From the NCBI RefSeq assembly GCF_000828675.1, contig NZ_AP014510.1:1321413-1385412 (forward strand): a stretch of DNA of 64,000 nt. The letters run 5' to 3'. The notes below the pieces were generated by a model that saw nothing but the letters and a program-made list of their open reading frames with translations, had not been told where the DNA came from and did no database searches. Source of the DNA: Thermotoga profunda AZM34c06 (GTDB taxonomy: Bacteria; Thermotogota; Thermotogae; Thermotogales; DSM-5069). This document shows, one piece after another, positions 2,367-18,656 of this stretch; the stretch's first letter is position 1; every line of letters starts with the position of its first letter. Position numbers and translations under genes: made by a program.

Positions 2367-3386
2367 CTAAAATTCTTCACAGGTTGAAACGAGATCTTCA
2401 ACTTTGGTTGTAGCAAGGCAGATCACCGTGTCTGCGGCACCATAGTAAATCTTTAGTTCATCACCTTCCAAAATAGCCCCTGTTGGAAAGACTACATTGT
2501 TTCTAAATCCATCACTGGTCTCATACTTTTCCTCCGGTACAATGAGAGGTTCTTTACATAAACCCAAAACTTTGGTCGGGTTTTTTAAATCAAGCAACAT
2601 AACACCTGCTGTGTAACGCTTGGTCCATTTTTCTTCCCAACCATTCTTTCCTCTTGATGAATCAATATCTACAGCATGAAAGATTACTAACCAACCACTG
2701 TCGGTTTTAATAGGGGGTGCTCCTGGACCAATTTTGATGTTGGCAAATAGTACATCTTCCACCGCAAGGAGAAGCTTGCTGTCTCCCCAATATCTCAAGT
2801 CTGGTGAAAAACTGATCCAGATATCAAATCTTTCTAAACCTAACCTGCCATAAACTGGAAACGGTCTTTCGAGTCTTACATACATACTATTTACTTTTTC
2901 TGGAAAAAGTACGATATTTCTGTTATCTGGCGTTGAGAGATCGATGATCTCAAATTGTTCGAAATCCTCCGTTTTTGCAATGCCTGCTCTTATTCCATGC
3001 CATGTGTCAACGGCAAAGGTCATATAGATCTTTTCTTCGATTGTAACTAATCTTGGATCATAAACTCTTATAAAATCTTTCTCATTTAGTGTAAAATGCA
3101 GCGGTTCTGGTTTAACCTTCCATTTTATTCCATCTTTGCTCAGTGCCAACCCCAGATTTGTTCCATCGATTCTTTTTTCTTCAAAAGAACCATAATCATT
3201 TCGAAAGACCATTATATAACGATCTTTTAGTTTGCAAACACCAGGATTGAATACAAGTGCAGAAATATATGGCACATCTTTGTAAGTGAGTATAGGATTG
3301 GCTGGGTGTCTTTTGATAATGTTCTGAGATTTCAATTCACCAACTGGTTTTGGTTCGAAATTTTCTCTGATTTTAGAAAGATCCAT
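2367..3386 (-). CDS. Glycoside hydrolase family 130 protein (beta-mannoside phosphorylase-like)
   Basis: GH130 enzymes phosphorolyse beta-mannosides (mannosyl-glucose or mannooligosaccharides) to mannose 1-phosphate, saving ATP. 339 residues, a single five-bladed propeller of normal length. Family features seen in order: RHPANPIL near 25, FNPGVCK near 47, FRNDYG near 61, the VYDPRL segment near 109 holding the family's catalytic Asp, KIGPGAPPI near 218 and a late YYGAADT. It is divergent from the ROK-regulated sugar operon and likely processes an imported mannose-containing glycan. Phosphorylase versus hydrolase subfamily cannot be settled here. Confidence 0.85.
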   Translation of the reverse strand: MDLSKIRENFEPKPVGELKSQNIIKRHPANPILTYKDVPYISALVFNPGVCKLKDRYIMVFRNDYGSFEEKRIDGTNLGLALSKDGIKWKVKPEPLHFTLNEKDFIRVYDPRLVTIEEKIYMTFAVDTWHGIRAGIAKTEDFEQFEIIDLSTPDNRNIVLFPEKVNSMYVRLERPFPVYGRLGLERFDIWISFSPDLRYWGDSKLLLAVEDVLFANIKIGPGAPPIKTDSGWLVIFHAVDIDSSRGKNGWEEKWTKRYTAGVMLLDLKNPTKVLGLCKEPLIVPEEKYETSDGFRNNVVFPTGAILEGDELKIYYGAADTVICLATTKVEDLVSTCEEF

Positions 3387-3437
3387 TGCTTATCTACCCC
3401 CTTTTTGAAATCATGATAATGTTACACGAAAAACTAT

Positions 3438-3457
3438 AAATCGAAATAGTACGATTT
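3438..3457. promoter_or_regulatory. Small inverted repeat in the GH130/ROK divergent region
   Basis: AAATCG and CGATTT separated by 8 bases, about 52 bases before the GH130 start. It could be an operator for the GH130 gene, but the arms are short and chance is not excluded. Confidence 0.25.
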
Positions 3458-3564
3458 TCCAAGGATAACTTTTGCTATCGGAATAAATAGGGATCTAAAC
3501 ACGAAAAAACTGCCTTTGGAAATGCGGAGATTAGTTTTTGATGTATTTTCTGATTTGTTAACAT

Positions 3565-3593
3565 TTGACAAAAGATGCAGTTAGAAGCAACAT
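3565..3593 (+). promoter_or_regulatory. Promoter of the ROK-regulator operon
   Basis: Consensus -35 TTGACA at 3565-3570, a 17-base spacer and a weak -10 CAACAT at 3588-3593. A weak -10 next to a strong operator is consistent with a regulated promoter. Confidence 0.45.
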
Positions 3594-3617
3594 TTAGTTA
3601 GTAATATCTAACTAAAT
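3592..3617. promoter_or_regulatory. Palindromic operator, candidate ROK-regulator site
   Basis: Perfect inverted repeat with 10-base arms ATTTAGTTAG (3592-3601) and CTAACTAAAT (3608-3617) around TAATAT. It overlaps the end of the predicted -10 and stops just before the GAGGTG ribosome site of the regulator gene. Position and symmetry suggest autoregulation by the ROK protein (inference). Confidence 0.7.
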
Positions 3618-3630
3618 CGAGGTGTTTGTT

Positions 3631-4770
3631 TTGTTAACCGATCTTGAGGCAAGAACTCTGAAGGTTATACGAGATTCTGGTGAAATATCTCGACTTGAAA
3701 TATCTAAACTCTTAAACCTGAGTAAACCTGTTATAAGTCAGGCGGTGGCTCAGCTGATTAATAAAGGACTTGTAGTCGAATCCAATATTTGTAAGTCTTC
3801 TATAGGAAGACCAAGGATCAACCTAAAATTCGTTTCGGATGCGTTTTATTGTATAGGTGCCGAACTTGAAGAAAATACGTTCGAAATAATCATTACTGAT
3901 CTCTCTGGAAATGAGAAAAAGGCTTTTCAGGAAAGAATTCCTCACACAAAAGATTCACTTGATATCATTGAGTGGTGTTCCGAAAAAATCAAAGAGTTGA
4001 TAAGGCAATCGAATCTGCCAAGGGAAAAATTTTTAGGAATAGGAATTGGGATATCGGCCATGGTCGAACCGAACACAGGATTAGTGAGAACGGCTCCAGC
4101 ATTTGGTATGAAGGATTTCAATCTCCAAAACACGCTTCAAATGATGCTCGACCTTCCTGTATACGTAGCAAATAGAGTTAAATTGGCTGCATTTGCCGAG
4201 CACAAACTCGGAGCAGCAAAAGGTTTTAAGGATGTACTTTTTATATATTTGGATAGTGGTCTTGGATCTGCAGTTATTTTAAACGACGAATTATTCCAGG
4301 GATTTTATGGTAAAGCAGGAGAATTTGGATGGTTGATAACCGATATTGATGTCACAAAAGATGACATTTGTGAAGAACAAAATTTTGGACATTTGGCAAG
4401 GAAAATATCAGGTCATTGTTTGAGAAAGTACTTGGGTGAGATCGTTCAAGATACCGATCTGAGAGAAATTATCATGGCGATTAAGCAAGGGCAGATCGAA
4501 ATGGGAAAGAAGTTGAGAAGATCTTTAATGCATCTTGCCGCTGCAATAGCCAATTCAATACTCATGTTTGATCCGCAGATTGTAATCATCAAAGGGAGAA
4601 TCGGACAAAGATATTTCTCAGAAATCTTGGAAATTATTGAGCAATTTCTTTATGAGTTCTTGCCACTACAGTTTTATGAGAACCTTGAATTTCGCAAAGG
4701 TATGATTGATAAGTATGATGTGGCATTGGGTGGTGTCTTTTTGGTTCAAAAGAAAGTTATGAATATCTAA
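3631..4770 (+). CDS. ROK-family transcriptional regulator (NagC/XylR type) lacking the zinc motif
   Basis: Sugar-responsive repressor: winged-helix DNA-binding domain in the first ~65 residues (SRLEISKLLNLSKPVISQAVAQL), then an actin-like sugar-binding ROK domain (GIGIGISAMVEP, YLDSGLGSAVIL, GKAGEFGW). The TTG at 3631 is preferred because GAGGTG lies six bases upstream; the GTG at 3622 is inside that site. After GKAGEFG the family normally has a His and a CxCGxxGC zinc cluster; here both are missing, as only two Cys occur further on and not in that pattern. First gene of the sugar operon, 23 bases before the binding protein. Confidence 0.87.
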   Translation: MLTDLEARTLKVIRDSGEISRLEISKLLNLSKPVISQAVAQLINKGLVVESNICKSSIGRPRINLKFVSDAFYCIGAELEENTFEIIITDLSGNEKKAFQERIPHTKDSLDIIEWCSEKIKELIRQSNLPREKFLGIGIGISAMVEPNTGLVRTAPAFGMKDFNLQNTLQMMLDLPVYVANRVKLAAFAEHKLGAAKGFKDVLFIYLDSGLGSAVILNDELFQGFYGKAGEFGWLITDIDVTKDDICEEQNFGHLARKISGHCLRKYLGEIVQDTDLREIIMAIKQGQIEMGKKLRRSLMHLAAAIANSILMFDPQIVIIKGRIGQRYFSEILEIIEQFLYEFLPLQFYENLEFRKGMIDKYDVALGGVFLVQKKVMNI

Positions 4771-4793
4771 ATTACTCAAGGGGAGGTGGTTTC

Positions 4794-6035
4794 ATGCGGA
4801 GAATTTTTGCAATGTTACTTGTTTTAGCGACGGTTCTCTCAATGGCTGATGTGGTCTTAATGTGGTTTACAGATGGTCCAGATTATGACGTCATGCAGAA
4901 TCAGGTTGCAAAATTCGAAAAGGTTTATGGTGAAAAAGTTGTTGTTCTGAATCTACCCTATTACTTGGAATACAAACCCAAACTTGCTGCAATGGCTAAA
5001 GCGGGTTCACCACCAGATGTTGCAAGGGAAACCGACTTATTACCATGGCTTGATTACGCAATAGATATGAAGCCTTTAGTTGAGAAGTACACCAACATGA
5101 AATTCGAAGATTGGCTTGAAAATGTCTCTTTCTACAAACCAGCCTTTAAAAAGATCTATGAAAAATTCGGTAAAGTAATAGGCATACCGTACACTTCGGA
5201 TGCTCACGCAGTTTTTTACAACAAAGAGATTTTCAAGAAGGCTGGTATAGAAGTACCAAAAGACAGACCTTGGACGATTGATGAATGGTATGCTGCAATG
5301 AAAAAAATCAAACAAAGTGGTGCAGCAAGATATGCCCTTGTTTATGATTTCAGTCCCTACAGATTTTCAAATTTACTGTATGTCTTCGGTGGCGGTATTT
5401 GGGACCCTGAAGGAAAAAATATAATCATTGATTCACCAGAATCGATCGAGGCTCTGGAGTTTTTCGTCAAACTTCATGACGAAGATCTCATACCGAAAGC
5501 CGTTTGGTTAACTGGCGACGCACCGGCAAAGTATTTCCAAAACGGTATGGCTGCAATGTATGTCTCTGGCATATGGATGCTTGCCCAATTCAAAGAACAA
5601 TTGAAATTTGATTGGGGCGCCATTATGTGGCCATACAAGCGTCAAAGAGCTGTAATGACAGGTGGAAAGTATATAGTTCCATTCACTGAAAAAGGTGCAC
5701 AGCTTGCACTATTCTTGACCAATGAAGAAAATCTCGCAGAATTTGCCGGAAAACTTTATCTGATACCTGATAGAAAAGATTTGAGTGGTAAGGTAAAGGT
5801 TGAAGATCCTGTGATCAAAGAAGTTTACGATGTGGTGATGAAGGATCTTGATGAATCAGGAAGGGGAAGTCTTGTCGCGGATTGGTATGATCCAGATACA
5901 GCAGCTATAATACAAAAGAACAGAACAGTTATAATCGATGCGATAAAATCAGCGGTTGCCAAAGAAAAAACTCCTGCGCAGGCTTTCAGAGATCTTGCAA
6001 AGTTTCTGAGAGAAGAAGTCGCAAAAAGTAAATGA
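4794..6035 (+). CDS. Sugar ABC transporter, extracellular solute-binding protein (family 1)
   Basis: Captures the glycan in the periplasm and delivers it to the two downstream permeases. 413 residues with an N-terminal signal peptide (hydrophobic stretch about residues 4-18, cleavage near SMA-D) and no lipobox cysteine. Family marks: GSPPDVARETDLLPWLDYA near 67, GKVIGIPYTSDAHAVFYNKEIFKKAG near 124, and the late PFTEKGAQ region. ATG follows GGGGAGGTGG. No ATPase gene is in the operon, so a shared MsmX-type ATPase elsewhere is expected (inference). Ligand unknown. Confidence 0.92.
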   Translation: MRRIFAMLLVLATVLSMADVVLMWFTDGPDYDVMQNQVAKFEKVYGEKVVVLNLPYYLEYKPKLAAMAKAGSPPDVARETDLLPWLDYAIDMKPLVEKYTNMKFEDWLENVSFYKPAFKKIYEKFGKVIGIPYTSDAHAVFYNKEIFKKAGIEVPKDRPWTIDEWYAAMKKIKQSGAARYALVYDFSPYRFSNLLYVFGGGIWDPEGKNIIIDSPESIEALEFFVKLHDEDLIPKAVWLTGDAPAKYFQNGMAAMYVSGIWMLAQFKEQLKFDWGAIMWPYKRQRAVMTGGKYIVPFTEKGAQLALFLTNEENLAEFAGKLYLIPDRKDLSGKVKVEDPVIKEVYDVVMKDLDESGRGSLVADWYDPDTAAIIQKNRTVIIDAIKSAVAKEKTPAQAFRDLAKFLREEVAKSK

Positions 6036-6040
6036 GCTTT

Positions 6041-6070
6041 CTTGGGTGGGGAATCCCACCCAAGTTGTTT
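6041..6070 (+). terminator. Hairpin between binding-protein and permease genes (partial terminator)
   Basis: Perfect 10-bp stem CTTGGGTGGG (6041-6050) and CCCACCCAAG (6055-6064) with a GAAT loop, followed by TTGTTTT. It probably ends most transcripts or protects the 3' end of the binding-protein mRNA, giving more binding protein than permease. Confidence 0.75.
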
Positions 6071-6090
6071 TAAATCTGGAGGGAAGAACT

Positions 6091-6954
6091 TTGAAAAAAC
6101 AACTGGTCCCATGGTTATTTCTTCTGCCAAATCTCTTGATCTTTGCGATATTCATAGTAACACCTGCTCTGAGTAGTTTTTATTATTCTTTTACAGACTA
6201 TGATATGCTCACCTTTTCTGGGAAATTCGTTGGTTTGTCTAATTTCATTAGTCTTTTTCGCACGCCAAGTGATTTTAGCCATGTATTGACCAGAACATTT
6301 TTTTACACGTTGCTTGTTGTTCCTTTAGTTTTCTTTTCTTCACTTGGTTTGTCAGTAATAACTACATCGGATTTTATTTATGGTAGATCTTTTTTAAGGG
6401 CACTTTTCTATTGGCCTTGGCTTTTATCACCATCAATCATAGGTATCAGTTGGAAATGGTTTTTGGATTATGATGCAGGATTGATAAATATAATTCTCAT
6501 AAAAATGGGTTTAAACCCGATATCATGGTTGATAGATAAAAGATTAGCGTTTTTGAGTGTCACGTTGGTGACGGTTTGGAATGTTGCGGGCTATTTTATG
6601 GTTATGTTCAATGCAGCACTTACAGCTATCCCAGTTGAAGTCTATGAAGCGGCATCATTAGACGGCGCAAATAAATGGACAAGGTTTTGGAAGATCATCT
6701 TTCCTCTACTCAAGCCTACTTCAGTACTTGTGATAATTCTTTCAACAATTATGGCGATGAGGAGTTTTGAAGTGATATATGTTTTTACTTCTGGAGGACC
6801 TGGAACATCAACGACAATGGTTGCGCAAAAGATATACCATACTGCCTTTATGGAAAGAAAGCTTGGCATGGCCTCAGCAATGTCTATAGTACTGTTCTTA
6901 ATCTTGATAATTCTCTCATTATTACAATTCAAAGTTTTGGAGGAAAAGCAATGA
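6091..6954 (+). CDS. Sugar ABC transporter permease (MalF/UgpA type)
   Basis: Inner-membrane half of the channel fed by the binding protein at 4794. 287 residues, about six membrane helices starting at residue ~7 (PWLFLLPNLLIFAIFI). The ATPase-contacting EAA loop is clear: EVYEAASLDGANKWTRFWKI near residue 189, followed by the usual IFPLLKP. TTG at 6091 is chosen, seven bases after GGAGGG; the ATG at 6046 would lie inside the intergenic hairpin. Its end overlaps the next permease gene by four bases. Confidence 0.9.
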   Translation: MKKQLVPWLFLLPNLLIFAIFIVTPALSSFYYSFTDYDMLTFSGKFVGLSNFISLFRTPSDFSHVLTRTFFYTLLVVPLVFFSSLGLSVITTSDFIYGRSFLRALFYWPWLLSPSIIGISWKWFLDYDAGLINIILIKMGLNPISWLIDKRLAFLSVTLVTVWNVAGYFMVMFNAALTAIPVEVYEAASLDGANKWTRFWKIIFPLLKPTSVLVIILSTIMAMRSFEVIYVFTSGGPGTSTTMVAQKIYHTAFMERKLGMASAMSIVLFLILIILSLLQFKVLEEKQ

Positions 6955-7775
6955 AAAGAAGAAAAAGGATTTTTTTAGTAATCTTGAATCTCGTTGTGTA
7001 CGTTTTTGCATTTTTGTACGTTCTTCCGATATTGTGGACTGTCTTTTCGAGTTTTAAGGAAGAATCTGATCTTTTTTCGTGGCCTCCTCGTTTGGTAACC
7101 AAGTTGACTATGATCAACTACAGAAACGTTTTTTCTAAAACACAACTTCCTTTGTTCATGAGAAATTCTTTCTTTATTTCGATTTTTGCGACCATTATTA
7201 CCGTTTTGATAAGCATAATGGGAGGTTATGCGCTGGCAAAGTATCACTTTCGTTTTAGGGGTTTTATCTCATCTTTCACTTTGTCGATGTTGATGATTCC
7301 ATTGCAAGTGATAATGGTTCCAATTTATTTGGTGCTCTCGAAGATAGGCATGATAAACACCTTATGGGGTTTGATAATACCACCTTCTGCAACACCTACG
7401 GGTATATTTCTTGCACAGAGATATCTTTTGTCTGCACTTCCAGATGAAATCTTAGAAAGTGCAAGGATTGATGGAGCAGGGGAGATGAAGATTTTCTTTA
7501 AAATAGTACTACCACTTTCAACGCCACTTATAGCAGCCCTCTCGGTATTGTCTTTCACTTGGAGATGGAATGATTTTCTCTGGCCATTGATTGTCGTTGG
7601 TACTCCCAGACTGTACACTGTTCAATTGGCTTTGGGAATGTATGCCGGTGAACATATAGTGCAGTGGGGACCTTTATTGGCAATGACGGTAATATCAATG
7701 ATTCCTGTTTTAATTGTCTTCTTGCTACTCCAGAAATACTTCGTGAAGGGTATAGCAACTGGTGCTTTAAAATGA
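6951..7775 (+). CDS. Sugar ABC transporter permease (MalG/UgpE type)
   Basis: Partner permease of the importer. 274 residues, six predicted membrane helices, first at about 8-28. EAA loop: EILESARIDGAGEMKIFFKIVLPLSTP near residue 166. The start overlaps the previous stop (ATGA), indicating translational coupling. Ends 13 bases before the six-hairpin protein gene. Confidence 0.92.
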   Translation: MKRRKRIFLVILNLVVYVFAFLYVLPILWTVFSSFKEESDLFSWPPRLVTKLTMINYRNVFSKTQLPLFMRNSFFISIFATIITVLISIMGGYALAKYHFRFRGFISSFTLSMLMIPLQVIMVPIYLVLSKIGMINTLWGLIIPPSATPTGIFLAQRYLLSALPDEILESARIDGAGEMKIFFKIVLPLSTPLIAALSVLSFTWRWNDFLWPLIVVGTPRLYTVQLALGMYAGEHIVQWGPLLAMTVISMIPVLIVFLLLQKYFVKGIATGALK

Positions 7776-7788
7776 GGAAGTGACTTAT

Positions 7789-9582
7789 ATGGATTATAAG
7801 ATATTGGATAACGGTACTATCCTTTACGAAAGGGCCTTAGAGACTTTTATACTTTCCAATTTGGAGCAGACCTTAATTATGAAATATGGTGAACCTAAGC
7901 AACTCTTTTCTTCGAAACATGGTTTAGTGTTAGAGTTTGTGAAAACAAATATTGGTGAACCTGTTTTGTCAAGATACTGGCCAAATGGGTGTTATTTTCA
8001 AAGAGAGAATATGAACTGGTCTTTTTTAACCGCGAATGATATAGTCTCCACTCTCTTTTTTATAAATGGTTTGAAAAGACTTGAGCTTCTCTTCAAAGTA
8101 CCACTTAAGAGAAATTTCAAAGTACCATTTTTTAAATCGATAGACCTTGAAAGATCATTAAATGTCTCTTTTTTTAACGGATTAGTGAATTTTTCAGACA
8201 TTTTGAAGATCAAGATCGTGGAAGGAAAGTTGATTAAATTCGAGCAGAAAAATGACAGACTCTTTGAGCTTGTGATCGAGAGCAACGATAAAGGTTTTAT
8301 AAAACTCTCATTTGGTAGTCAAATTTCAGTTGATGGATCTGAGGAAGATCAGAACAGAGTTTATCTGAAGAAACTCGATGAGCATTGCCCTGGTGCTTTG
8401 AATAATTTGGAAAAAGCCCTGTATTTTTTCTCGGTACATACAGCACTTTCCTGTTGGAAAGATTTTGGAACTGTCAAGGCTCTGTCAGCAGGTAACAATT
8501 ACAGTTTTCCTCCAAGGACTTATTTCAGAGACGGTTTTTGGACGTCACTCACACTTTTGAAAATCGATTCAAAACTCGTTAAAGAACAAATCCTTACCTT
8601 AGCTCAAGGAGTTCATGATGATGGTTGTCCAAGCGCGGTAATGTTTTTAAATGACGACGAAAAAAGATTGTTGAGAGATCTTGCCATGAGTTCATCTCAA
8701 CTTGCTCAGTTTGTAAGATATGAAAACGACTGGTGGTCAAATCATCACGACTCGGGCCCATTGTTTGTGTTATTAGTTTTCGAGTACATTAAATTCACTG
8801 AAGATCTTTCAATCTTATCTGAAAAAGTTGATGGAAAGACTATCTTAGAAAAAATAAAAATTATTATACGTCAGATAGATAGCTATCCTAAAAACAAGGA
8901 TGGTTTGATGCTCAAACCATATGATTCAAACGATTGGGCTGACAACGTCTTTAGAAATGGTTTGGTTAGCTATGATTTGGCATTCCAGATAGCTGCACTT
9001 GGTAAAGCTTGTGAGATTTTCAAAATGCACTCAGTCAAGGATATCGAATTATGCAAAAGATTCAACATAACGAAAAAACTCTTCAACCAAAGATTATTCG
9101 ATCATGAGAAGGGTTATTTCTATGATTTTGTTGGTACCTATGTTGAAGATCATCTCAGTTTAGATACAATTGTCGCAATTTTATACGATATCGCAGACAA
9201 AGACAAAGCTTTATCAACACTTTCTAAAATGCATGACCTTCTTGAGACACGGAACAATTCCGAACAACCATATGGTGATTGGGGCGTTATGAATGTGTGG
9301 CCACCTTATAAGAAAAGGTCCCATCTTTTTGGGAAAAGTGCATTCCCATTTAGGTATCATAACTCGAGTTGTTGGCCTTATTTGAATTGCGCTTATGCCT
9401 TAGCTCAGTTCAAAAATGGGTTCGATCCATCTTATGGTCTTCTCGAGTGGTGGAAATATTCGTTGAAGCATGGTTGGCTGAATTTAGTTGAATATTATTC
9501 ACCTGCTTATCATAGAGGAGGTTTGAATCAAGGTTGGAGCTCATTTGCAGGTTTTGTAATAGATGAAATATACAAAAAATGA
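7789..9582 (+). CDS. Six-hairpin (alpha/alpha)6 glycosidase-like protein, uncharacterised
   Basis: 597 residues, cytoplasmic (no signal peptide). The N-terminal ~200 residues look like a beta-rich domain; the rest resembles six-hairpin glycosidases of the GH15/GH63/amylo-1,6-glucosidase superfamily, with PPRTYFRDGFWTSL near 240, WWSNHHDSGPLF near 316, DSNDWADNVFRNG near 380 and a late NSSCWPYLNCAYAL / GGLNQGWSSFAGF. These acidic and aromatic clusters resemble an active-site rim, but I cannot name the general acid or base with confidence. ATG at 7789 is chosen after GAGGAAG; an in-frame GTG at 7780 is part of that site. Operon context implies action on the imported oligosaccharide. Confidence 0.65.
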   Translation: MDYKILDNGTILYERALETFILSNLEQTLIMKYGEPKQLFSSKHGLVLEFVKTNIGEPVLSRYWPNGCYFQRENMNWSFLTANDIVSTLFFINGLKRLELLFKVPLKRNFKVPFFKSIDLERSLNVSFFNGLVNFSDILKIKIVEGKLIKFEQKNDRLFELVIESNDKGFIKLSFGSQISVDGSEEDQNRVYLKKLDEHCPGALNNLEKALYFFSVHTALSCWKDFGTVKALSAGNNYSFPPRTYFRDGFWTSLTLLKIDSKLVKEQILTLAQGVHDDGCPSAVMFLNDDEKRLLRDLAMSSSQLAQFVRYENDWWSNHHDSGPLFVLLVFEYIKFTEDLSILSEKVDGKTILEKIKIIIRQIDSYPKNKDGLMLKPYDSNDWADNVFRNGLVSYDLAFQIAALGKACEIFKMHSVKDIELCKRFNITKKLFNQRLFDHEKGYFYDFVGTYVEDHLSLDTIVAILYDIADKDKALSTLSKMHDLLETRNNSEQPYGDWGVMNVWPPYKKRSHLFGKSAFPFRYHNSSCWPYLNCAYALAQFKNGFDPSYGLLEWWKYSLKHGWLNLVEYYSPAYHRGGLNQGWSSFAGFVIDEIYKK

Positions 9583-9598
9583 ATCAGGAGGTGCTTAC

Positions 9599-11422
9599 AT
9601 GGTCGAGAAATGGGATCATTACCCAGTTTATATGTGGGCAGGACCAGGTACGATAAGGATCAATAAAGTCAAATTCCCTGGTAAATCTATTGATGAACAA
9701 GTTCATATCAAGGGAGGCTTACGTGAGGGTGCAGCTCGGCTTAAGAAAATGGGATACAATTGGGCTTATTGTAGTTATAACTGGGGGTTTCCTCCAGAAA
9801 TCGAGAAGGAAGATCATGAATATTTCAGAAAGACTGTTGAAGAGTATCATGCGCAAGGCCTTAAAGTATTTGGATATGTACAGTTCTCTAATGCAGTTTT
9901 CACTGGTTCATACTTGACAAAACGCTGGTACGCTTTAGATCCTTATGGTGAAAAGATAAATTATTATTCTGGCAGATACTTAGTTTGTCCCACAGATCCA
10001 GAGTGGAAAGAGCATTTGAAAGAAATCGTGATTGGAATAGTCAATGCAGGAGCTGACGGTGTTTTCTTTGATAACATGTTTGGTTCATGGTTTGGTTTTC
10101 GCCCATGTTATTGTGATAGATGTCAAGATTTGTTCAAAGAGTTTGCAGAAAAACAGGGTTTCGATGTCAAAGGTATACCACATCACCTCAGTGAGAATAT
10201 TGAATCAAGACTCTACTTGATTTGGAGAAGAAAGATAATTTGGCAAACAGTGGAGGAACTTTCTGAAGTTGCACGGAAGCTCAAAAAAGATATCTTGATT
10301 TCTTCAAACTCTTTCGAAGCAGGTATAAGTGAACTTTCGATCATGGCTGGAATAGATCTGAGAGAGGCTTTCAGAGTACAAGACTTAGTTATGATAGAAA
10401 ATCATCAAATTCCGAGAAAATTTCATGATATACAGATCTTTAATACGATGACCTATAGAATAGCTCACGCACACAGCAAGGGGAAGGCTGTAACTTCTGT
10501 ACCCTACATGTTTGGAATCGGAGATGATTCTGTTTATCCTGTTAGATTATACCTTCAAGCTATGGCAGAGGCATATTCAAATGACTCAGTGATGGTTCTC
10601 AAAGGCACGGAATATTTTCACAATGGTAAGTGGACTTTGCTGACGGACGATCAGTTTGAAGATGTACGTAATCAGATAGAGAATTATCACAAATGGTACA
10701 AACAAAATCTTGTTAAAGATCTCTATGGTGAGCGTGCGGCAAGAATAGGTATCTTTCATCCTTATGATTCGTTAACCTTTCATTGGGAGAAAACAGCACT
10801 ACCTTTCTTTGCAGCACAGCACGAATTAATTCGTTCGAACATAGATTACAAAGTGGTTTGGGACAATTTTGAAGGAGTAGATCTTCTGCTTGTACCACCA
10901 ATCTTTGAAGAAAATGAGATAAATATCGTGAAAAAATTCAAGAAAAATAAGATCTTTCTTGGCTATTCGCCTTTTGAAAATGAAAAATTGATATGGAGTG
11001 ATGTATACAAAATAATCTCTCTTAATCAGAAACCCGAACAACAATTGGCTTTAGAACAAGATTTAGCATTATTGAATTTTTCAACATATTTTAATGATCA
11101 AGTATGGAGAGAGCGACTTCAAAAAAATGGTTTTTTGTTCTTCAATTATCTCAATTACTGTTATACATTTACACATCCTTTCAATGCTGAAGAACTCATT
11201 GAGATAGTCGAAAACTATCAAGATTGGAAAATAAAATCAGATGGTTTTGTTATCACAACTTCATACAAACAGGACAATCTTTTGAAGGTACATGTTGTGA
11301 ATCTTGAAGAAAGGAAAACGGAAATTGATCTGGTGTTACCACAAGGATTCGAATTAAAAGAAGTATGCGAATACAGTTGCGATGGGGTTTTTGTACATAG
11401 AATTTATTTCATCAGCACATGA
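9599..11422 (+). CDS. TIM-barrel putative glycosidase (GHL6-like) with C-terminal beta-galactosidase-like region
   Basis: 607 residues, cytoplasmic. Residues ~1-330 look like a glycosidase-type TIM barrel: LKKMGYNWAYCSYNWG near 44, LKVFGYVQFSN near 87, VNAGADGVFFDNMFGSW near 148. Immediately after comes a Cys cluster CYCDRCQDLFKEF, which is common in uncharacterised GHL6-like and related putative alpha-amylase-superfamily proteins. Residues ~370-520 resemble the flavodoxin-like trimerisation domain of GH42-type enzymes, then a small beta domain. The ATG at 9599 follows AGGAGGTG; a frame opening at 9563 overlaps the previous gene. Last gene of the operon. Substrate and catalytic residues unknown. 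Confidence 0.6.
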   Translation: MVEKWDHYPVYMWAGPGTIRINKVKFPGKSIDEQVHIKGGLREGAARLKKMGYNWAYCSYNWGFPPEIEKEDHEYFRKTVEEYHAQGLKVFGYVQFSNAVFTGSYLTKRWYALDPYGEKINYYSGRYLVCPTDPEWKEHLKEIVIGIVNAGADGVFFDNMFGSWFGFRPCYCDRCQDLFKEFAEKQGFDVKGIPHHLSENIESRLYLIWRRKIIWQTVEELSEVARKLKKDILISSNSFEAGISELSIMAGIDLREAFRVQDLVMIENHQIPRKFHDIQIFNTMTYRIAHAHSKGKAVTSVPYMFGIGDDSVYPVRLYLQAMAEAYSNDSVMVLKGTEYFHNGKWTLLTDDQFEDVRNQIENYHKWYKQNLVKDLYGERAARIGIFHPYDSLTFHWEKTALPFFAAQHELIRSNIDYKVVWDNFEGVDLLLVPPIFEENEINIVKKFKKNKIFLGYSPFENEKLIWSDVYKIISLNQKPEQQLALEQDLALLNFSTYFNDQVWRERLQKNGFLFFNYLNYCYTFTHPFNAEELIEIVENYQDWKIKSDGFVITTSYKQDNLLKVHVVNLEERKTEIDLVLPQGFELKEVCEYSCDGVFVHRIYFIST

Positions 11423-11432
11423 ATTCTGAAAT

Positions 11433-11459
11433 AAAAGTGAGGCTCTCGCCTCACTTTTT
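11433..11459. terminator. Bidirectional terminator
   Basis: Perfect 11-bp stem AAAAGTGAGGC (11433-11443) with GCCTCACTTTT (11448-11458), TCTC loop, A-tract on the left and T-tract on the right. It ends the ROK operon on the plus strand and overlaps the last codons of the minus-strand dehydrogenase gene. Confidence 0.85.
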
Positions 11460-12437
11460 CTTTAAGACTTCGATATTCACCAAATTTGGTGGCACCTCAC
11501 CACTCAAGGCCTTTACAATGTTCTCGGCCGCCATGATAGACATTTTTGTTCTTGTATTGTAGGATGCCGAACCAATGTGCGGTGCAAGAACGACGTTTTC
11601 TAATTCGAGTAGTTCTGGCTCAATTTCTGGCTCATTCTCGAAAACATCGAGTGCAGCTCCTCTGATCCAATTTTCCTTTAACGCTTTAACAAGGGCTTTT
11701 TCGTCCACAATTGGACCACGTGCTGTATTTATCAAATAAGCTTCTTTCTTCATGAGCTTCAATTGATCTTGACCTATCAGATGATGTGTCTGTTTTGTAA
11801 GTGGAAGATGTAAGCTGACAAAATCTGATTCTTTCAAAAGTGTTTCTAAATCAACGTATGTTGCATTCAGTTCTTTCTCGATTTGTTCATTAACCCTTGA
11901 ACGGCTATAATAGAGAACCTTCATCTTGAAACCGATAGCTCTTCTTGCGACGGCTTGACCTATCCTACCAAAACCAATAATACCCAATGTTGCCCCGTAG
12001 AGATCTGTACCCAAGAGCAACATGGGTTCCCATCCGCGAAATTTGCCAGCCCTAACGAATTTGTCGCCTTCGACGATCCTTCTGGCAATGGCCATCATCA
12101 ACGCCCATGCCAGATCGGCGGTAGTTTCTGTAAGAACTCCCGGTGTATTGGTCACCATGATACCTCTTTTAGTGGCCTCTTCAACATCGATGTTGTTGTA
12201 GCCAACAGCATAATTTGCTATTACTTTTAGTTGTGGCCCCGCTGCTTCTATGACTTCTTTGTCTATCGGGTCAGCCAGAAGGCACAAAAGACCGTCAATG
12301 CCTTTTACTTTTTCCAAAAGAATTTTCTTTGGTATAAGACCATCATAATCACTAACCTGCACATCAAAGTTTTCAAACAATATTTTCAAGCCTTGTTCTG
12401 GTATTTTACTTGTTACAAAAACTCTTGGTTTTGTCAT
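11451..12437 (-). CDS. D-2-hydroxyacid dehydrogenase (glyoxylate/hydroxypyruvate reductase type)
   Basis: NAD(P)-dependent reduction of a 2-oxoacid (glyoxylate, hydroxypyruvate) or the reverse. 328 residues: split substrate domain and central Rossmann domain with GFGRIG at 155-160. Catalytic set complete: R240 (NTARGPIVDE), E269 (DVFENEPE) and H287 (LAPHIGSA). Closest in pattern to glyoxylate reductase GyaR of Thermococcus/Thermotoga type. ATG follows AAGGAGG; its start abuts the stop of the upstream TIM-barrel gene. Last gene of a four-gene operon that holds a second, different dehydrogenase. Confidence 0.88.
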   Translation of the reverse strand: MTKPRVFVTSKIPEQGLKILFENFDVQVSDYDGLIPKKILLEKVKGIDGLLCLLADPIDKEVIEAAGPQLKVIANYAVGYNNIDVEEATKRGIMVTNTPGVLTETTADLAWALMMAIARRIVEGDKFVRAGKFRGWEPMLLLGTDLYGATLGIIGFGRIGQAVARRAIGFKMKVLYYSRSRVNEQIEKELNATYVDLETLLKESDFVSLHLPLTKQTHHLIGQDQLKLMKKEAYLINTARGPIVDEKALVKALKENWIRGAALDVFENEPEIEPELLELENVVLAPHIGSASYNTRTKMSIMAAENIVKALSGEVPPNLVNIEVLKKK

Positions 12438-13376
12438 TCACTGAACCTCCTTTAAAAGTTTTGAATACGCCATGAGAAAGGTTCTTTTTGCGTTTGCAAC
12501 TACAAGATCTGGATCTTCATCTGGTAATGGTTTTACTTCAAAAGATATCACAGGTTTTTGGGTTGCAACCTTTTTTTCAAAGTAATTGTTCTTCAAAAGT
12601 GCTTTCAGAAAATAAGTGAGTTCTTCGACATCGTTGCTTCCACCTTTTATACCAAATCTTGGATGTAGATCTCCATAGGAAGGGTGATCTTTTTCAAGAA
12701 CTGCGTTACCAATGTGAACGTGTGTTATGAAAGGTGAAAGTAAACCGATTGTGTAAAATGAATCTTCAAAAAGTAATGGTTGGTGAGAAAGATCAATGGT
12801 AAGACCAAAGTTTTCACAAGAATTTCTGACTTCTGACGCAATTTCAAATGCCACAGGTGCTGGTCCAACGAGAGCTTTTTTGTCCACAGACCAATCAAAG
12901 ACTTCCAGATTCACTGCAACTGTGTAGCCATGTTCTTTACCTTTTAATTTGGCGTAATCACATAACTCTTCAAGTGATTTTACAAGTTCTTTTTTTGCGT
13001 TTTCAATCTGACTATTTGGCATCTTACCACTCAAAAATGCCACTGCCTTTGCACCACTGATATACGCTTTGTCGATAGATGCCTTGGCTTCTTGGACTGC
13101 TCTGAGTCGTTCATTCTCATCAAGTGAATTCAAATTGAGATTTTTTGTTAGTATCAGAGGTTGTGCTGCAACGAGTAATTCGACCTTTGCCGTTTCACAC
13201 ATCTTTCCTATTTTTTTGAAAGTATCTTCATCTACAAGCGCACTTACTTCAACGGCCTGGAAAAATTCATCGTTGAGCACTCTTTTAATCGTTGAGAGTA
13301 TTTCTTCCTGGGTTTTTGCATTTGGATAGGCCATAAAATGTATCAAACCCATATAGAATCGATCGTGCCATATCAA
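12438..13376 (-). CDS. Xylose-isomerase-like TIM-barrel protein (sugar phosphate isomerase/epimerase superfamily)
   Basis: 312 residues of the AP-endonuclease-2 type TIM barrel. Metal-site candidates: NLEVFDW near 157, TIDLSHQPL near 193, FITHVHIGNAVL near 217 with conserved Asp/His, and SFEVKP near 281, which fit the usual Glu-Asp-His-Glu pattern. The start is TTG at 13376, nine bases after AGGAGG; a nearer ATG at 13382 stops after two codons and another ATG is out of frame. It may epimerise or isomerise a sugar or sugar acid used by the neighbouring aldolase and dehydrogenases. Exact reaction unknown. Confidence 0.75.
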   Translation of the reverse strand: MIWHDRFYMGLIHFMAYPNAKTQEEILSTIKRVLNDEFFQAVEVSALVDEDTFKKIGKMCETAKVELLVAAQPLILTKNLNLNSLDENERLRAVQEAKASIDKAYISGAKAVAFLSGKMPNSQIENAKKELVKSLEELCDYAKLKGKEHGYTVAVNLEVFDWSVDKKALVGPAPVAFEIASEVRNSCENFGLTIDLSHQPLLFEDSFYTIGLLSPFITHVHIGNAVLEKDHPSYGDLHPRFGIKGGSNDVEELTYFLKALLKNNYFEKKVATQKPVISFEVKPLPDEDPDLVVANAKRTFLMAYSKLLKEVQ

Positions 13377-13392
13377 TTCATATCGCCTCCTG

Positions 13393-14163
13393 TTAAAACA
13401 TTCTCAGAGAATCCACTATCTTTCTCGCACTATCTACAATTAGATTTATATCACTTGAACAAACCAAGAGTTTCATACCCATCTGAGCCCAAGGTTTAAT
13501 TGCGTCAGGTGTTGAAAGATGTATACCACATGGGATGCCAAGATCCAGAGATTTTTGGACAAATTTTGCCACATAGCTTTGGACAAGTGGATGATCAATT
13601 TCACCAGGAAAACCAAGATCTTGGGAGAGATCGTTTGGCCCCAACAAAAACGCGTCAACCCCAGGCATTTTGAATTTATCGAGATTTTCTATAGCCTTTC
13701 TACTTTCGATTTGAAGAATTATCATTGTATTTTCATTTGCCCATTTGATATATTCTTCTTTTTTGACGGATGAAAAACCCACCGGTGCCTTTCTTGTAGC
13801 CATACCTCTTTCACCCACAGGGTAATATTTTGTTGCTTTTATCACTTGTTCAACAACGTCTATTTCCTCAATTTGTGGTATTAACAAGCCCTCTGCACCA
13901 CAATCAAGTGGTCTTGATAAGTTGTGATGGCCAAACCTTGTAGGTACTCTTACTATGGGTGTTATTCCACCGGCTTTTGCAGCCCATATCATATCTTGTA
14001 CGGTTTCAAGACTAAACGACGAGTGTTCAGTGTCTATGACAAAAAAATCAAATCCCGCTGTGGCAAGCATCTGGGCTATACTCGGTGTTCTGATTTCACT
14101 CACCATTGTTCCAATAACTGTTTTCCCCTCTTTCAGGAGTCTTTTTGTTTTATTTTCCTTCAT
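13393..14163 (-). CDS. HpcH/HpaI-family aldolase
   Basis: Class II (metal-dependent) aldolase that cleaves 2-keto-3-deoxy-type acids to pyruvate plus an aldehyde (family members: 2-dehydro-3-deoxyglucarate aldolase, 4-hydroxy-2-oxoheptanedioate aldolase). 256 residues, the normal size. Key residues: E46-H47 in DTEHSSF (catalytic His), VRVPTRF near 72, LQIESR near 151 (metal Glu) and LLGPNDLSQDLG near 173 (metal Asp). ATG follows GAGGTG and overlaps the stop of the upstream dehydrogenase (ATGA), so the two are coupled. Could act in sugar-acid breakdown. Confidence 0.87.
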   Translation of the reverse strand: MKENKTKRLLKEGKTVIGTMVSEIRTPSIAQMLATAGFDFFVIDTEHSSFSLETVQDMIWAAKAGGITPIVRVPTRFGHHNLSRPLDCGAEGLLIPQIEEIDVVEQVIKATKYYPVGERGMATRKAPVGFSSVKKEEYIKWANENTMIILQIESRKAIENLDKFKMPGVDAFLLGPNDLSQDLGFPGEIDHPLVQSYVAKFVQKSLDLGIPCGIHLSTPDAIKPWAQMGMKLLVCSSDINLIVDSARKIVDSLRMF

Positions 14164-15140
14164 CTTGTCACCTCATAACCGTATTTTTTTAAGAGATCTG
14201 TATTAGTTGGAAAGGTTGGTATCTTACCTGAAAGCACCTCTATCACACCTTGTGCTGCATCTTGAGCCATTCTCACTACACATTCTTTTGTTAAAGCAGA
14301 ATTATGAGGTGTGAGCAAGATCTTGTCACAATTGAAAAATGGATGATCAGATCTTGGTGGTTCCTCTACAAAGACATCTGTAGCTGCTCCTGCGATCCAT
14401 CCTTCATTTAAAGCTTTCAACACGGCATTTTCATCCCATAATGGCCCACGCGCCATGTTTATGATGAACGCAGTTGATTTCATCAATCTAAGTTGTGTCT
14501 CGCCTATGAGATTTCTTGTCTCGTTTGTAAGTGGTGCGTGTATGGTGACAAAATCAGATTCTTTCAAAAGACTTTCCAAAGATACAAGTTTCACACCAAT
14601 TTCATTGGCTTTTTCTTTGTTAACATATGGATCGAATGCCAAAACTCTCATTGAAAAAGCCAGCTGGCATTTTTTTGCAACAAGTGTGCCGATTCTTCCA
14701 AGGCCTATTATTCCCAAAGTTTTCGAATCCAGATCTATAGTAGAGAATAAATCTCGTATCTTGAAGTTGTTATTTCTTGTTTCATAGTCCATTTGTTTGA
14801 GTCTTTTTGCGAGTGCGAGAATAAATGCAATGGTTGCTTCTGCTACAGAGATGGCATTTGCATTGGGTGTATTCACAACCCAGATGCCTCTTTTTGATGC
14901 CTCTTCAAGATCTACATTGTCCAAACCAACACCATGACGAGCTATTACCTTTAATTTTGGGGCACTTTGAATGACCTTAGCTGTGAAAGGCGATGTTCTA
15001 ACTATGACACCATCAACATCAACTATTTCCTTTGCCACAGTCTCTGGGTTGGCATCAGAGGCGTGAACGATTTCAAAACCTGCTTTTTTTAACAACTCAA
15101 TCCCACTTTCGTGAATGGGTTGAACGATCATCACTTTCAT
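14160..15140 (-). CDS. D-2-hydroxyacid dehydrogenase (phosphoglycerate dehydrogenase-like)
   Basis: 326 residues, first gene of the operon. Rossmann motif GLGRIG near 146-151, catalytic R231 (NMARGPLWDE), E260 (DVFVEEPP) and H279 (LTPHNSAL). It lacks the C-terminal ACT domain of biosynthetic SerA, and its setting argues for a catabolic role. The sequence differs clearly from the dehydrogenase at 11451, so two different oxidation or reduction steps are likely. ATG follows TGGAGGG. Confidence 0.85.
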   Translation of the reverse strand: MKVMIVQPIHESGIELLKKAGFEIVHASDANPETVAKEIVDVDGVIVRTSPFTAKVIQSAPKLKVIARHGVGLDNVDLEEASKRGIWVVNTPNANAISVAEATIAFILALAKRLKQMDYETRNNNFKIRDLFSTIDLDSKTLGIIGLGRIGTLVAKKCQLAFSMRVLAFDPYVNKEKANEIGVKLVSLESLLKESDFVTIHAPLTNETRNLIGETQLRLMKSTAFIINMARGPLWDENAVLKALNEGWIAGAATDVFVEEPPRSDHPFFNCDKILLTPHNSALTKECVVRMAQDAAQGVIEVLSGKIPTFPTNTDLLKKYGYEVTR

Positions 15141-15167
15141 CCGTATCCCTCCAAAGACCTATCCTAT

Positions 15168-15184
15168 TTTGAGGATATCTCAAA
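15168..15184. promoter_or_regulatory. Palindrome upstream of the hydroxyacid/aldolase operon
   Basis: TTTGAG and CTCAAA around GATAT, 28 bases before the first start codon. A further TTTTGAGA half-site lies at 15212-15219. It differs from the LacI-type palindrome at 21724, so another regulator is implied. TATAAA near 15189-15194 could be the -10; no good -35 was found. Confidence 0.4.
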
Positions 15185-15261
15185 TTCTATTTATACACTG
15201 AATTTGCCAATTTTGAGACAGGGATTTTCTTGTCCAAATGTGAGGATAAATCGAAATCGTA

Positions 15262-16266
15262 TCAGGTGGTTTTCCTGATTATTAATTCAACATCCAGTAT
15301 CAACTGTTTACAATTCTTTCTTCTGCCACTGATCCTTTCCAATAAAGTTTTGAAGGCTTCAAAACCCATTTCATATTTCTTGATTTGGATGGTGGTCAAA
15401 GGTGGGCGAAAATAAGATGCAAAACAAATATCGTCATAACCAACGACCGCTACATCTTCTGGAACTTTTTTCCCAAGTTCATCCAGTGCTTTTATCGCAC
15501 CAAATGCGAACATATCGTTGTAGCAAAATATAGAATCAAAATCTACACCCCTTTTGATTGCTTCTTTGACACCCATATAGCCTGCTTCCATGTTTTTGTT
15601 ATATGGTACAGTGACAAGGTAATCTTCAGAGAGTTCTATATCTGATTCAAAAAGTGCTTTTTTATAACCTTCATATCTCATTTTAGATGCGGAATTATCC
15701 ATGTTTGTGTTTATGAAAAGTATGCGTTTTCTGCCCTTTGAAATTAGATGTTTTGTCGCCAAATAACCTCCCTTGATCTCTTCGTTGTATATTTCATCGA
15801 TATCTGAACGGTACATATGTCTGCCGATTAATACAAAAGGAAAATTCATCTTCAAAAGTTTTTCAAAATCCTCTGTGTTTTGTCCAAATGGACTGATCAA
15901 GAGTCCTTCAACTCTTCTTTCAAGTAAAGTAGTAATAGCCTGTGATTGCGTTTTTGGATCTGTTTCTGTGTTCATCAAAAGTAATTGATAACCGAATTTT
16001 CTTGTGGCAACTTCAATACCTTTTAGAACTTCGGCAAAAAAAGGATTGGAGCTGTCTTCTATTACAACTCCAATGGTTTTTGTCTGATTTCTTCTCAGTG
16101 CGAAAGCTGTTGAGTTCTTTATATAACCGATTTCTTTGGCTATTTTAAGTATCTTCTGCCGAGTCTGTTTACTTATATCTTCCTTACCCCTCAATGCTTT
16201 AGAAACGGTATTAATCGAGACACCGGCTTGTTTGGCGATATCTTTCATTGTCACGTATTTTTTCAC
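15262..16266 (-). CDS. LacI-family transcriptional regulator
   Basis: Sugar-responsive repressor. 334 residues: HTH and hinge helix in residues 1-60 (VTMKDIAKQAGVSINTVSKALRG), then a periplasmic-binding-like effector domain (TIGVVIEDSSNPFFAEVLKGIE, FCYNDMFAFGAIKALDELGKKVPEDVAVVGYDD). GTG start after GGGTGAGA. Last gene of the GH2/ABC operon, so it is produced under its own control; the CG-centred palindrome at 21724 is its likely operator. A small inverted repeat overlaps its stop codon but has no U-tract. Confidence 0.93.
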   Translation of the reverse strand: MKKYVTMKDIAKQAGVSINTVSKALRGKEDISKQTRQKILKIAKEIGYIKNSTAFALRRNQTKTIGVVIEDSSNPFFAEVLKGIEVATRKFGYQLLLMNTETDPKTQSQAITTLLERRVEGLLISPFGQNTEDFEKLLKMNFPFVLIGRHMYRSDIDEIYNEEIKGGYLATKHLISKGRKRILFINTNMDNSASKMRYEGYKKALFESDIELSEDYLVTVPYNKNMEAGYMGVKEAIKRGVDFDSIFCYNDMFAFGAIKALDELGKKVPEDVAVVGYDDICFASYFRPPLTTIQIKKYEMGFEAFKTLLERISGRRKNCKQLILDVELIIRKTT

Positions 16267-16286
16267 TTACTCTCACCCTCAAATAT

Positions 16287-18656
16287 TTAGTATAGTATAT
16301 AAGAAATAATCAGTCTTGAAATTAGATCATCTTTCAATGTTGTGAAGATCTTTCGCCTTCCTTCTATTTCTTTTGTGTACAACAGAGAGGTAAAGGCATA
16401 ACCCCAACCAGTGATTTTGTTTATGATTGAGTTGTCAGAACTTGGTATTTTGTCTTGTTTCATCATAAGCACATATTCTGATGTGACCTCACCTAAAGAC
16501 CATAGTAAAGCCGATATATTCTTATTTCTTTTTGTATTGAATATGGTCAAATTGCTTATCCAATCTCCTGATAGATCTAAAAAGCCATGAAGTTTTTGCT
16601 TTTCAGAGATCGATACGAGTTCATCATCTTGCAATATATCACCATTTACCCAAACTATCTCATCTTTCAAAGGTGATGGTCTCAAAACAACTATTGGGTA
16701 GAAATTGCGATTGATTAAGTCCCCGCCTTCAAAAATTTCAAGAAAAATATTCTGTGTACTTGGTTCCAGTTTTGTTGAAAAATCCATGATCTTTGATACC
16801 GACCATTTTTTCAATGAAATTGGTACCTGTTTGAGAATCTTGGTATCTGTTCTGATGACCAAATTTGCATCGATATTTCTTCCTGAATTATTAGCTATAT
16901 AAACTTGCGCGTGATAGATATCATCATCTTTGATGATTGCTCTGTGATCTTTAATGATTGGCAAGATCTCTCTGTTGAGAAACCTCAATTTGGAATGAAA
17001 GACCTTTGGCATACGATTATAATCCAGTAGCCCATTGGCTTCCCAAGCAATATCTGAAAATTCAGTTATGACATAACCTGAAATCTCTGGCCTGAGTCTC
17101 ATCCTTTCTATTTGATATTTCAAACCTAAGAATTGGTGAAGCTGAGCTTGGTAGATGAAATCATCTATGTTGTGAAAACCACAAACGCGAGCAATTGCAT
17201 CGATAGGTGATGAGTTTGGAAATTTCACACCCATTGTGGTTACAGGAAATCTCATCCAATTACCTTCCCAATCTTTTGGATCAGAAAGCCCCCAGATACC
17301 AAATTCTGATACAACCTTTGGTAACTCTCTGTCTGATTCAAAAAAACTCTTAAAATCTCCGGTAGCGAAATTTTCTATTTTTTTGTTCCACTGTGTGTTG
17401 TGGTATGGAAATGAATTATAGAAGTGAAAATCATCTATATCTGAGATGACATGAAAATTACCAACACAAGCGGAGTTGTCTACATAGAGTCTTGTATTGT
17501 CAAGATTTTTAGCTTTTCTGTAAAACAATTCGAGCCACTTTCTTTCTTTTTCTTTGGATAGATCGATACCCCAGCTTTCATTTATCAAACTTAGAACAAC
17601 AAAACTCGGATGGTTTGCATGCCTTTTTAGAAGGTTTTCAAGCAATTTCTCCAGGTATTCCATCGATCCTTCGTTTAACTGTCTTGCGTATGGCAGGTCT
17701 ATCCATACCAAGAGTCCAAGTTCATCTGCAACTTCCAAGTAAAGATCGTCTGGGATTTTCACATGAAATCTCAAAAGATTTAGTCCCATTTCCTTTGCTT
17801 TCAAAAATTCAGAGATGAGATCATCCTTTTTGGGTAGTATGTAGTGATTGATCGGATAGAAATTCTGATCAAGAGCACCAAACAAGTAAATAGGTTCGCC
17901 ATTGAATAGTATTTTATCTTTATTTGTATCTATCGTTCTAATACCGAATTTTGTTTGAAACCTATCTTTTGAAACACCGTCGGTGAAATCAATTATGGCT
18001 GTGTAAAGTTGAGGGGATTTCAGAGACCAAAGTTTTGGATTCTCAATGGCAAAATCAAATGTTGAGTAATTAAATTTTTCACTCAAAATTTGTATTCCTG
18101 ATGGATCTATCACAGTTAAGGAGAAGTCATGTTCCTGTCCATCAGAGAATTCAATTTCACACTTGATGGTTTTTAGGTCTTTCATTGGTATGAACTTTGC
18201 AGATTTTATGAAAATCTTGTCTACAATCCATAATTCAACATTCTGAATTATTCCACAAGCATTCCCATACCAATCTTGTTTGCCCATAACGATTTCAGGT
18301 TTATTGATTATATCAAAATCAGAGACAAAGATCTTTAATGTATCATGACCATCAAAATTTAGTGATTCTGTTATCTCAATATCAAACAGGTCATAGCCAT
18401 TTTCATGGTCTAAGATTTGTTTTCCGTTTATGTAGACCTTCGACAGGTAGTCGATTCCGTGGAATCTCAGCAAGACTCTTTTATCAGACAGTCCTTTTAA
18501 TTCGACCAGTTCTCTTTCATATAAACCAGAAAGGCAAACTGGATTTGGATAGCTTTGTTCAGTTATGGGAAATTCATGTGGTAGAGAGATATCGTTGCAG
18601 ATTACACCATCTTCGTAGGTTAATTTCCAATTTTGATTCAAAATAATTCTCATCAT
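16287..18656 (-). CDS. Glycoside hydrolase family 2 protein
   Basis: Retaining exo-beta-glycosidase (beta-galactosidase, -glucuronidase or -mannosidase type). 789 residues, no signal peptide. Domain order: jelly-roll sugar-binding domain (~1-150), immunoglobulin-like domain (~150-245), TIM barrel (~250-540), then extra beta domains. Acid/base E360 in SLINESWG and nucleophile E451 in VVSEFGIWG; NLLRFHVKIPDD near 293 is the family TIM-barrel entry. ATG follows AAGGAG. Encoded with a sugar importer and a LacI regulator, so it likely trims an imported oligosaccharide. The sugar at the cleaved end is not predictable here. Confidence 0.9.
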   Translation of the reverse strand: MMRIILNQNWKLTYEDGVICNDISLPHEFPITEQSYPNPVCLSGLYERELVELKGLSDKRVLLRFHGIDYLSKVYINGKQILDHENGYDLFDIEITESLNFDGHDTLKIFVSDFDIINKPEIVMGKQDWYGNACGIIQNVELWIVDKIFIKSAKFIPMKDLKTIKCEIEFSDGQEHDFSLTVIDPSGIQILSEKFNYSTFDFAIENPKLWSLKSPQLYTAIIDFTDGVSKDRFQTKFGIRTIDTNKDKILFNGEPIYLFGALDQNFYPINHYILPKKDDLISEFLKAKEMGLNLLRFHVKIPDDLYLEVADELGLLVWIDLPYARQLNEGSMEYLEKLLENLLKRHANHPSFVVLSLINESWGIDLSKEKERKWLELFYRKAKNLDNTRLYVDNSACVGNFHVISDIDDFHFYNSFPYHNTQWNKKIENFATGDFKSFFESDRELPKVVSEFGIWGLSDPKDWEGNWMRFPVTTMGVKFPNSSPIDAIARVCGFHNIDDFIYQAQLHQFLGLKYQIERMRLRPEISGYVITEFSDIAWEANGLLDYNRMPKVFHSKLRFLNREILPIIKDHRAIIKDDDIYHAQVYIANNSGRNIDANLVIRTDTKILKQVPISLKKWSVSKIMDFSTKLEPSTQNIFLEIFEGGDLINRNFYPIVVLRPSPLKDEIVWVNGDILQDDELVSISEKQKLHGFLDLSGDWISNLTIFNTKRNKNISALLWSLGEVTSEYVLMMKQDKIPSSDNSIINKITGWGYAFTSLLYTKEIEGRRKIFTTLKDDLISRLIISYILY

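Follow-up and report, generated by a model that had tools for sequence, protein, structure and literature searches.

A locus in the closed 2.19 Mb genome of Thermotoga profunda AZM34c06 groups genes encoding a sugar importer, a ROK-family regulator, a GH130 enzyme and two further enzymes of 597 and 607 residues. The locus raises the question of what kind of glycan is degraded by the encoded proteins and whether the degradation is phosphorolytic, as was proposed in the initial annotation of the 64,000-nucleotide stretch of DNA analyzed here, hereafter the window.

Gene content and organization of the locus

All previously described ORFs were found in place in the ORF list, and Pfam agreed with the description of an importer, a regulator, a phosphorylase-family gene and two enzymes at one locus, identifying the GH130 enzyme, the ROK regulator with its HTH, the sugar-binding protein (SBP) and two BPD permeases. 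The gene encoding the predicted GH130 beta-mannoside phosphorylase (2367-3386) is located on the reverse strand. Divergent from it, on the forward strand, are the genes encoding the ROK regulator (3631-4770), the SBP (4794-6035), permease 1 (6091-6954), permease 2 (6951-7775), the 597-residue enzyme (7789-9582) and the 607-residue enzyme (9599-11422). Conservation and ribosome-binding sites placed the starts of the last two genes at ATG 7789 and ATG 9599, and corrected the starts for ROK (TTG 3631, 379 residues) and permease 1 (TTG 6091, 287 residues). The SBP and two permeases constitute three of the four parts of an ABC importer; neither the ORF list nor Pfam revealed a gene for the ATP-binding subunit within the block. 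The SBP has an N-terminal hydrophobic signal stretch, which is absent from both the 597- and 607-residue enzymes in agreement with the earlier statement that neither has a signal peptide.

A hairpin in the gap between the SBP and permease genes (6041-6064, forward strand) is found at the same place in relatives and is stable at five Pseudothermotoga-family loci, where the stems differ in sequence; it probably belongs to a known class of elements by which SBP expression is maintained at a high level. A similar palindrome was observed between the SBP and permease genes at two Petrotogaceae-like loci (this name and Kosmotogaceae-like, used below, are inferred family names). The weak terminator-like hairpin located 3' of the operon (11437-11449, forward strand) is of a kind counted at near the chance level. 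The locus is adjoined by a convergent cluster on the reverse strand (11451-18656) encoding two 2-hydroxyacid dehydrogenases, a xylose-isomerase-like TIM barrel, an HpaI-type aldolase, a LacI regulator and a GH2-like protein, which is kept beside the locus in genome G010 and not in the sister genus.

Conservation of the block

The genes encoding GH130, ROK, the SBP, two permeases and both enzymes were found as one block in seven of the 11 genomes of the family, with GH130 divergent from the order ROK-SBP-permease-permease-597-607 in the relatives. Since the block is present in seven genomes belonging to two genera, the gene arrangement is not due to chance. Across the phylum (103 genomes), GH130 orthologues with 61-80% identity, the gene for the 607-residue enzyme and the closest homologues of the 597-residue enzyme were found only in these same seven genomes, and the next GH130 after the orthologues of at least 61% identity was 43% identical. 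Both enzymes and the close GH130 were absent from G008 and G009, which belong to the same genus. Identities between the window and G004 were 82% for the SBP, 74-75% for the permeases, 69% for GH130, 68% for the 607-residue enzyme, 53% for the 597-residue enzyme and 50% for ROK. Among named relatives that carry the locus, a Pseudothermotoga MAG comes nearest, with 83% identity in the 607-residue protein. In G007, also a MAG, the block lies in pieces across separate contigs. A scan of genome contigs with patterns that were too narrow returned only two close relatives, and a scan of viral contigs returned no match. The results indicate that the locus is a conserved, ordinary and uncharacterised kind of sugar locus.

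Two irregular copies were also observed. The GH130 gene of G005 (L056 3542-4470) is split into two overlapping frames, possibly a pseudogene or a sequencing error. In G101 (L061 7436-8497) part of a ROK gene is immediately followed by part of the gene for the 607-residue protein, covering residues 335-516 and containing an in-frame TAG close to a contig end; this looks like a decayed copy.

A candidate operator for the ROK regulator

The sequence ATTTAGTTAG-TAATAT-CTAACTAAAT at the ROK promoter is a perfect 10-6-10 palindrome (3592-3617) located just downstream of a TTGACA box (3565-3570). The 22-base pattern has one zero-mismatch match in the whole genome, and a zero-mismatch copy is present once, at the same place, in six genomes including that of the window. 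The regulator contains both an N-terminal winged HTH (MarR_2 over cut-off) and the ROK domain (137 bits) according to Pfam. Both observations accord with the initial view of a ROK-controlled locus, and the palindrome is the probable ROK operator. A second copy with fewer than four mismatches was not found in the intergenic region of the window, nor was one found at the GH130 promoter; one further site with three mismatches occurs in the intergenic region of G010. Since there is no good second copy, GH130 need not be under ROK control. The palindrome is approximately 130 bp upstream of the -35 box of the predicted GH130 promoter (TTGGAA-18-TATAGT, 3433-3462, reverse strand), for which the number of promoter predictions of this type was near the chance level (three found, 1.4 expected). 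A block at approximately 3440-3475 upstream of GH130 (gattttcc..ggataactt), overlapping the predicted promoter, looks partly conserved in six genomes.

The GH130 enzyme

The GH130 enzyme matched the Pfam profile at 174.4 bits (cut-off 26). Column counts revealed that Asp110, the proposed acid, is kept together with Arg156, Arg174, Lys218 and His237; position 156 is Arg or Lys, and Arg174 and Lys218 are kept, across nearly all Thermotogota rows. Residues 156, 174 and 218 are presumably the three phosphate ligands of GH130. Since the acid aspartate is kept, as are the basic residues linked to phosphate binding, the GH130 step is likely to be phosphorolytic, and the GH130 phosphorylase partner named in the initial annotation is upheld. 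The absence of these basic phosphate ligands is the mark of GH130 hydrolases (PMC4599007).

The closest GH130 of known activity, and the closest solved structure (1vkd), is TM1225 of Thermotoga maritima, a beta-1,4-mannooligosaccharide phosphorylase (PMC8950772). In a tree from which wrongly extracted ORFs were excluded, the GH130 of the locus and its orthologues formed a clade of their own (support 100/99), on a long branch and distinct from the clade of the TM1225 type; this placement suggests a different acceptor sugar. A second GH130 of the genome (G000:C1:93437-94378), located outside the window, has a higher Pfam score and is approximately 39% identical to that of the locus.

The ManR regulon of T. 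maritima comprises a ROK regulator, mannoside-degrading enzymes and a mannan-induced ABC transporter (PMC3750489). The locus resembles this Thermotogales system in the ROK control, predicted here, of a transporter and mannoside enzymes. It differs in that the GH130 belongs to a separate clade and is approximately 42% identical to the TM1225 type, the 597- and 607-residue enzymes are of different types, and the second GH130 of the genome is encoded elsewhere. ManR conservation was reported to be limited to five closely related Thermotoga species.

The 597-residue enzyme

The 597-residue enzyme of the window was over the cut-off for no curated Pfam family. GDE_C was not matched at E≤1, and the partial match to GH116 (DUF608) over residues 314-484 scored 24.7 bits, below the cut-off of 26.3. 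Partial Pfam matches among the 20 members of its family were to GDE_C (18, at E≤1), DUF608/GH116 (17), GH94 (13) and MGH1-like (9) models, which indicates that the enzyme is a six-hairpin, (alpha/alpha)6, barrel. A profile of the 20 sequences aligned by hhalign with 14 GDE-type Thermotogota proteins (98.3%, 330 columns), placing R247-D248 (RDG) on the GDE RDS, D385 on the WxD aspartate, Y523-H524-N525 and W529-P530 (YHNGS-WP) on YHNGSVWP, and Q581-W583 (QGWSS) on QLWS. Glu568 was positioned one residue off the PELF glutamate in a gapped stretch of the alignment. Asp385 was invariant in 20 of 20 sequences, and Glu568 in all 19 that reach that position. In the Candida glabrata GDE, the catalytic carboxylates D1241 and E1492 are positioned where glucoamylase has its acid and base (PMC4837477); the WxD aspartate and PELF glutamate were matched to these residues by motif position, without alignment to the C. 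glabrata enzyme. Asp385 (DWADN) is proposed as the acid and Glu568 (VEYYSP) as the base, whereas the enzyme had previously been described as having no assignable catalytic residues. Alignments of the family to the single E. coli YgjK and TreA sequences were short.

The C-terminal part also bears on whether the enzyme is instead an inverting phosphorylase of the GH94 or GH65 kind, which would render the whole pathway phosphorolytic. The 13 matches to the GH94 model are in favor, as is the alignment with Thermotogales GH94 (hhalign 97.5%, 235 columns), in which DWAD falls on DWND of the shared barrel. However, the latter leaves the C-terminal part unaligned and ends before the region of Glu568, whereas the alignment to the GDE-type proteins is both stronger and longer, and continues through the base motif, results for which an inverting hydrolase is more likely than a phosphorylase. 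Inverting phosphorylases employ phosphate instead of a catalytic base; Glu568 is kept in all full-length family members. Furthermore, no beta-phosphoglucomutase neighbor was found in the annotated loci. A gene beside the homologues of other Thermotogota, suspected from its length to encode this mutase, was identified as PIG-L by Pfam. A phosphorylase is considered quite improbable.

The preferred inverting hydrolase is a clean member of no family. It resembles the GH133-type glycogen debranching enzyme (amylo-alpha-1,6-glucosidase) in the (alpha/alpha)6 barrel motifs, WxD aspartate, YHNGS-WP and C-terminal carboxylate region, but the GDE alignment does not make it a GH133 enzyme; it is encoded with an importer, glycogen is an unlikely substrate, and GDE_C was unmatched as stated above.

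The 607-residue enzyme

Residues 43-185 of the 607-residue enzyme aligned with GH42 (hhalign 91%; 1kwg, E 0.03), and C130, C170, C172 and C175 fell on the positions of the GH42 cysteines, which bind zinc in that family. The likeness to GH42 beta-galactosidases includes this cysteine pattern and the N-terminal half of the barrel, although the remaining barrel is not alignable and position 160, the acid/base glutamate in the DNEYG of GH42, is Met, Ile or Val in seven of seven orthologues. Invariant candidate catalysts are D158, E240, E267 and E338. Weak Pfam matches, extending to approximately D158, were obtained with the putative glycosidase families GHL6 (32.2 bits, below the cut-off of 35), DUF6259 and GHL15, all at the edge of the cut-offs; to our knowledge, no member of the three has been characterized. 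That the protein is so well conserved speaks against its being a decayed enzyme. The statement that the two enzymes belong to no characterized family was borne out, the 597-residue enzyme fitting none cleanly and the 607-residue enzyme having no GH42 acid/base glutamate. Structure prediction, which had been recommended for both, was of less help: the AF2 models, both built from few sequences, were poor (pLDDT 35 and 44), and a Foldseek search with the model of the 607-residue protein, which returned no match at E≤0.001, was given no weight.

Gene context in other bacteria and the nature of the substrate

Homologues of the 597-residue enzyme are present in other Thermotogota families and in rhizobia without this type of GH130; thus, its substrate need not contain mannose. 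The Petrotogaceae- and Kosmotogaceae-like genomes have the same importer type with a PIG-L deacetylase encoded directly beside the homologue. Rhizobial plasmid homologues are found with ROK kinases, ABC importers, and GH28 or a glucosamine-6-phosphate-isomerase-like gene, the latter adjoining the homologue of Rhizobium sullae. The PIG-L and isomerase-like neighbors are consistent with an amino-sugar glycan as substrate, the importer and 597-residue enzyme forming the core for an N-acetylhexosamine glycoside and GH130 being a separate neighbor. Such a role is nonetheless unlikely: the Pseudothermotoga block contains no PIG-L gene, and GH130 orthologues and the block are always found together. 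PIG-L genes are found elsewhere in 11 of 11 genomes of the family, so that their presence alone is uninformative.

Other neighbors relate to uronate use. A D-mannonate oxidoreductase is encoded next to the homologue at Petrotogaceae-like loci, which also encode 6-phosphogluconate dehydrogenase, and a beta-glucuronidase-like GH2 is encoded at the Kosmotogaceae-like locus, which also encodes an alpha-glucosidase-type GH4. Mannosyl-glucuronic acid phosphorylase activity is known in GH130 (PMC8950772), and the substrate could accordingly be an acidic glycan with a beta-Man-1,4-GlcA end on which GH130 has this activity. However, the uronate genes are from other lineages and may belong to neighboring operons, and an acidic glycan has a low probability. 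Overall, the context in other bacteria speaks for amino sugars or uronates no less than for mannose.

Proposed pathway

The reading that we favor, although only slightly, is an operon that represses itself and serves to import and cleave a short hetero-oligosaccharide carrying beta-linked mannose. We infer the following order of steps. ROK would repress its own operon via the palindrome at its promoter until released by the imported sugar. The SBP and two permeases would import the oligosaccharide, powered by an ATPase encoded elsewhere. In the cytoplasm, the 597-residue enzyme would hydrolyse a terminal sugar with inversion, with Asp385 acting as the acid and Glu568 as the base. GH130, encoded divergently, would release mannose as mannose 1-phosphate, and the 607-residue GH42-like enzyme would cut a further linkage with chemistry that does not involve the acid/base glutamate of GH42. 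The gene content and the absence of signal peptides are in agreement with a pathway in which an imported oligosaccharide is degraded inside the cell, with ROK control and a GH130 phosphorylase, as first suggested. The phosphorolytic character ascribed to that pathway is retained for one step only, that of GH130; an all-phosphorolytic pathway is unlikely in view of the inverting-hydrolase base motif of the 597-residue enzyme.

It is possible, if doubtful, that the 597-residue enzyme founds a new inverting (alpha/alpha)6 family of Thermotogota and rhizobia, that the 607-residue enzyme founds a GH42-related family with the GH42 cysteines and other catalysts, and that these act, together with a GH130 whose acceptor specificity is new, on a glycan that Thermotogota are not known to use. 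If the two families are new, the classification of sugar-active enzymes would be extended by two members of known gene context. For two unassigned thermostable enzymes, the analysis narrows the possibilities to residues and reactions that can be tested, and it provides a conserved candidate operator for the regulon. The association of the 597-residue enzyme family with amino-sugar and uronate genes elsewhere guides the choice of the first substrates to try.
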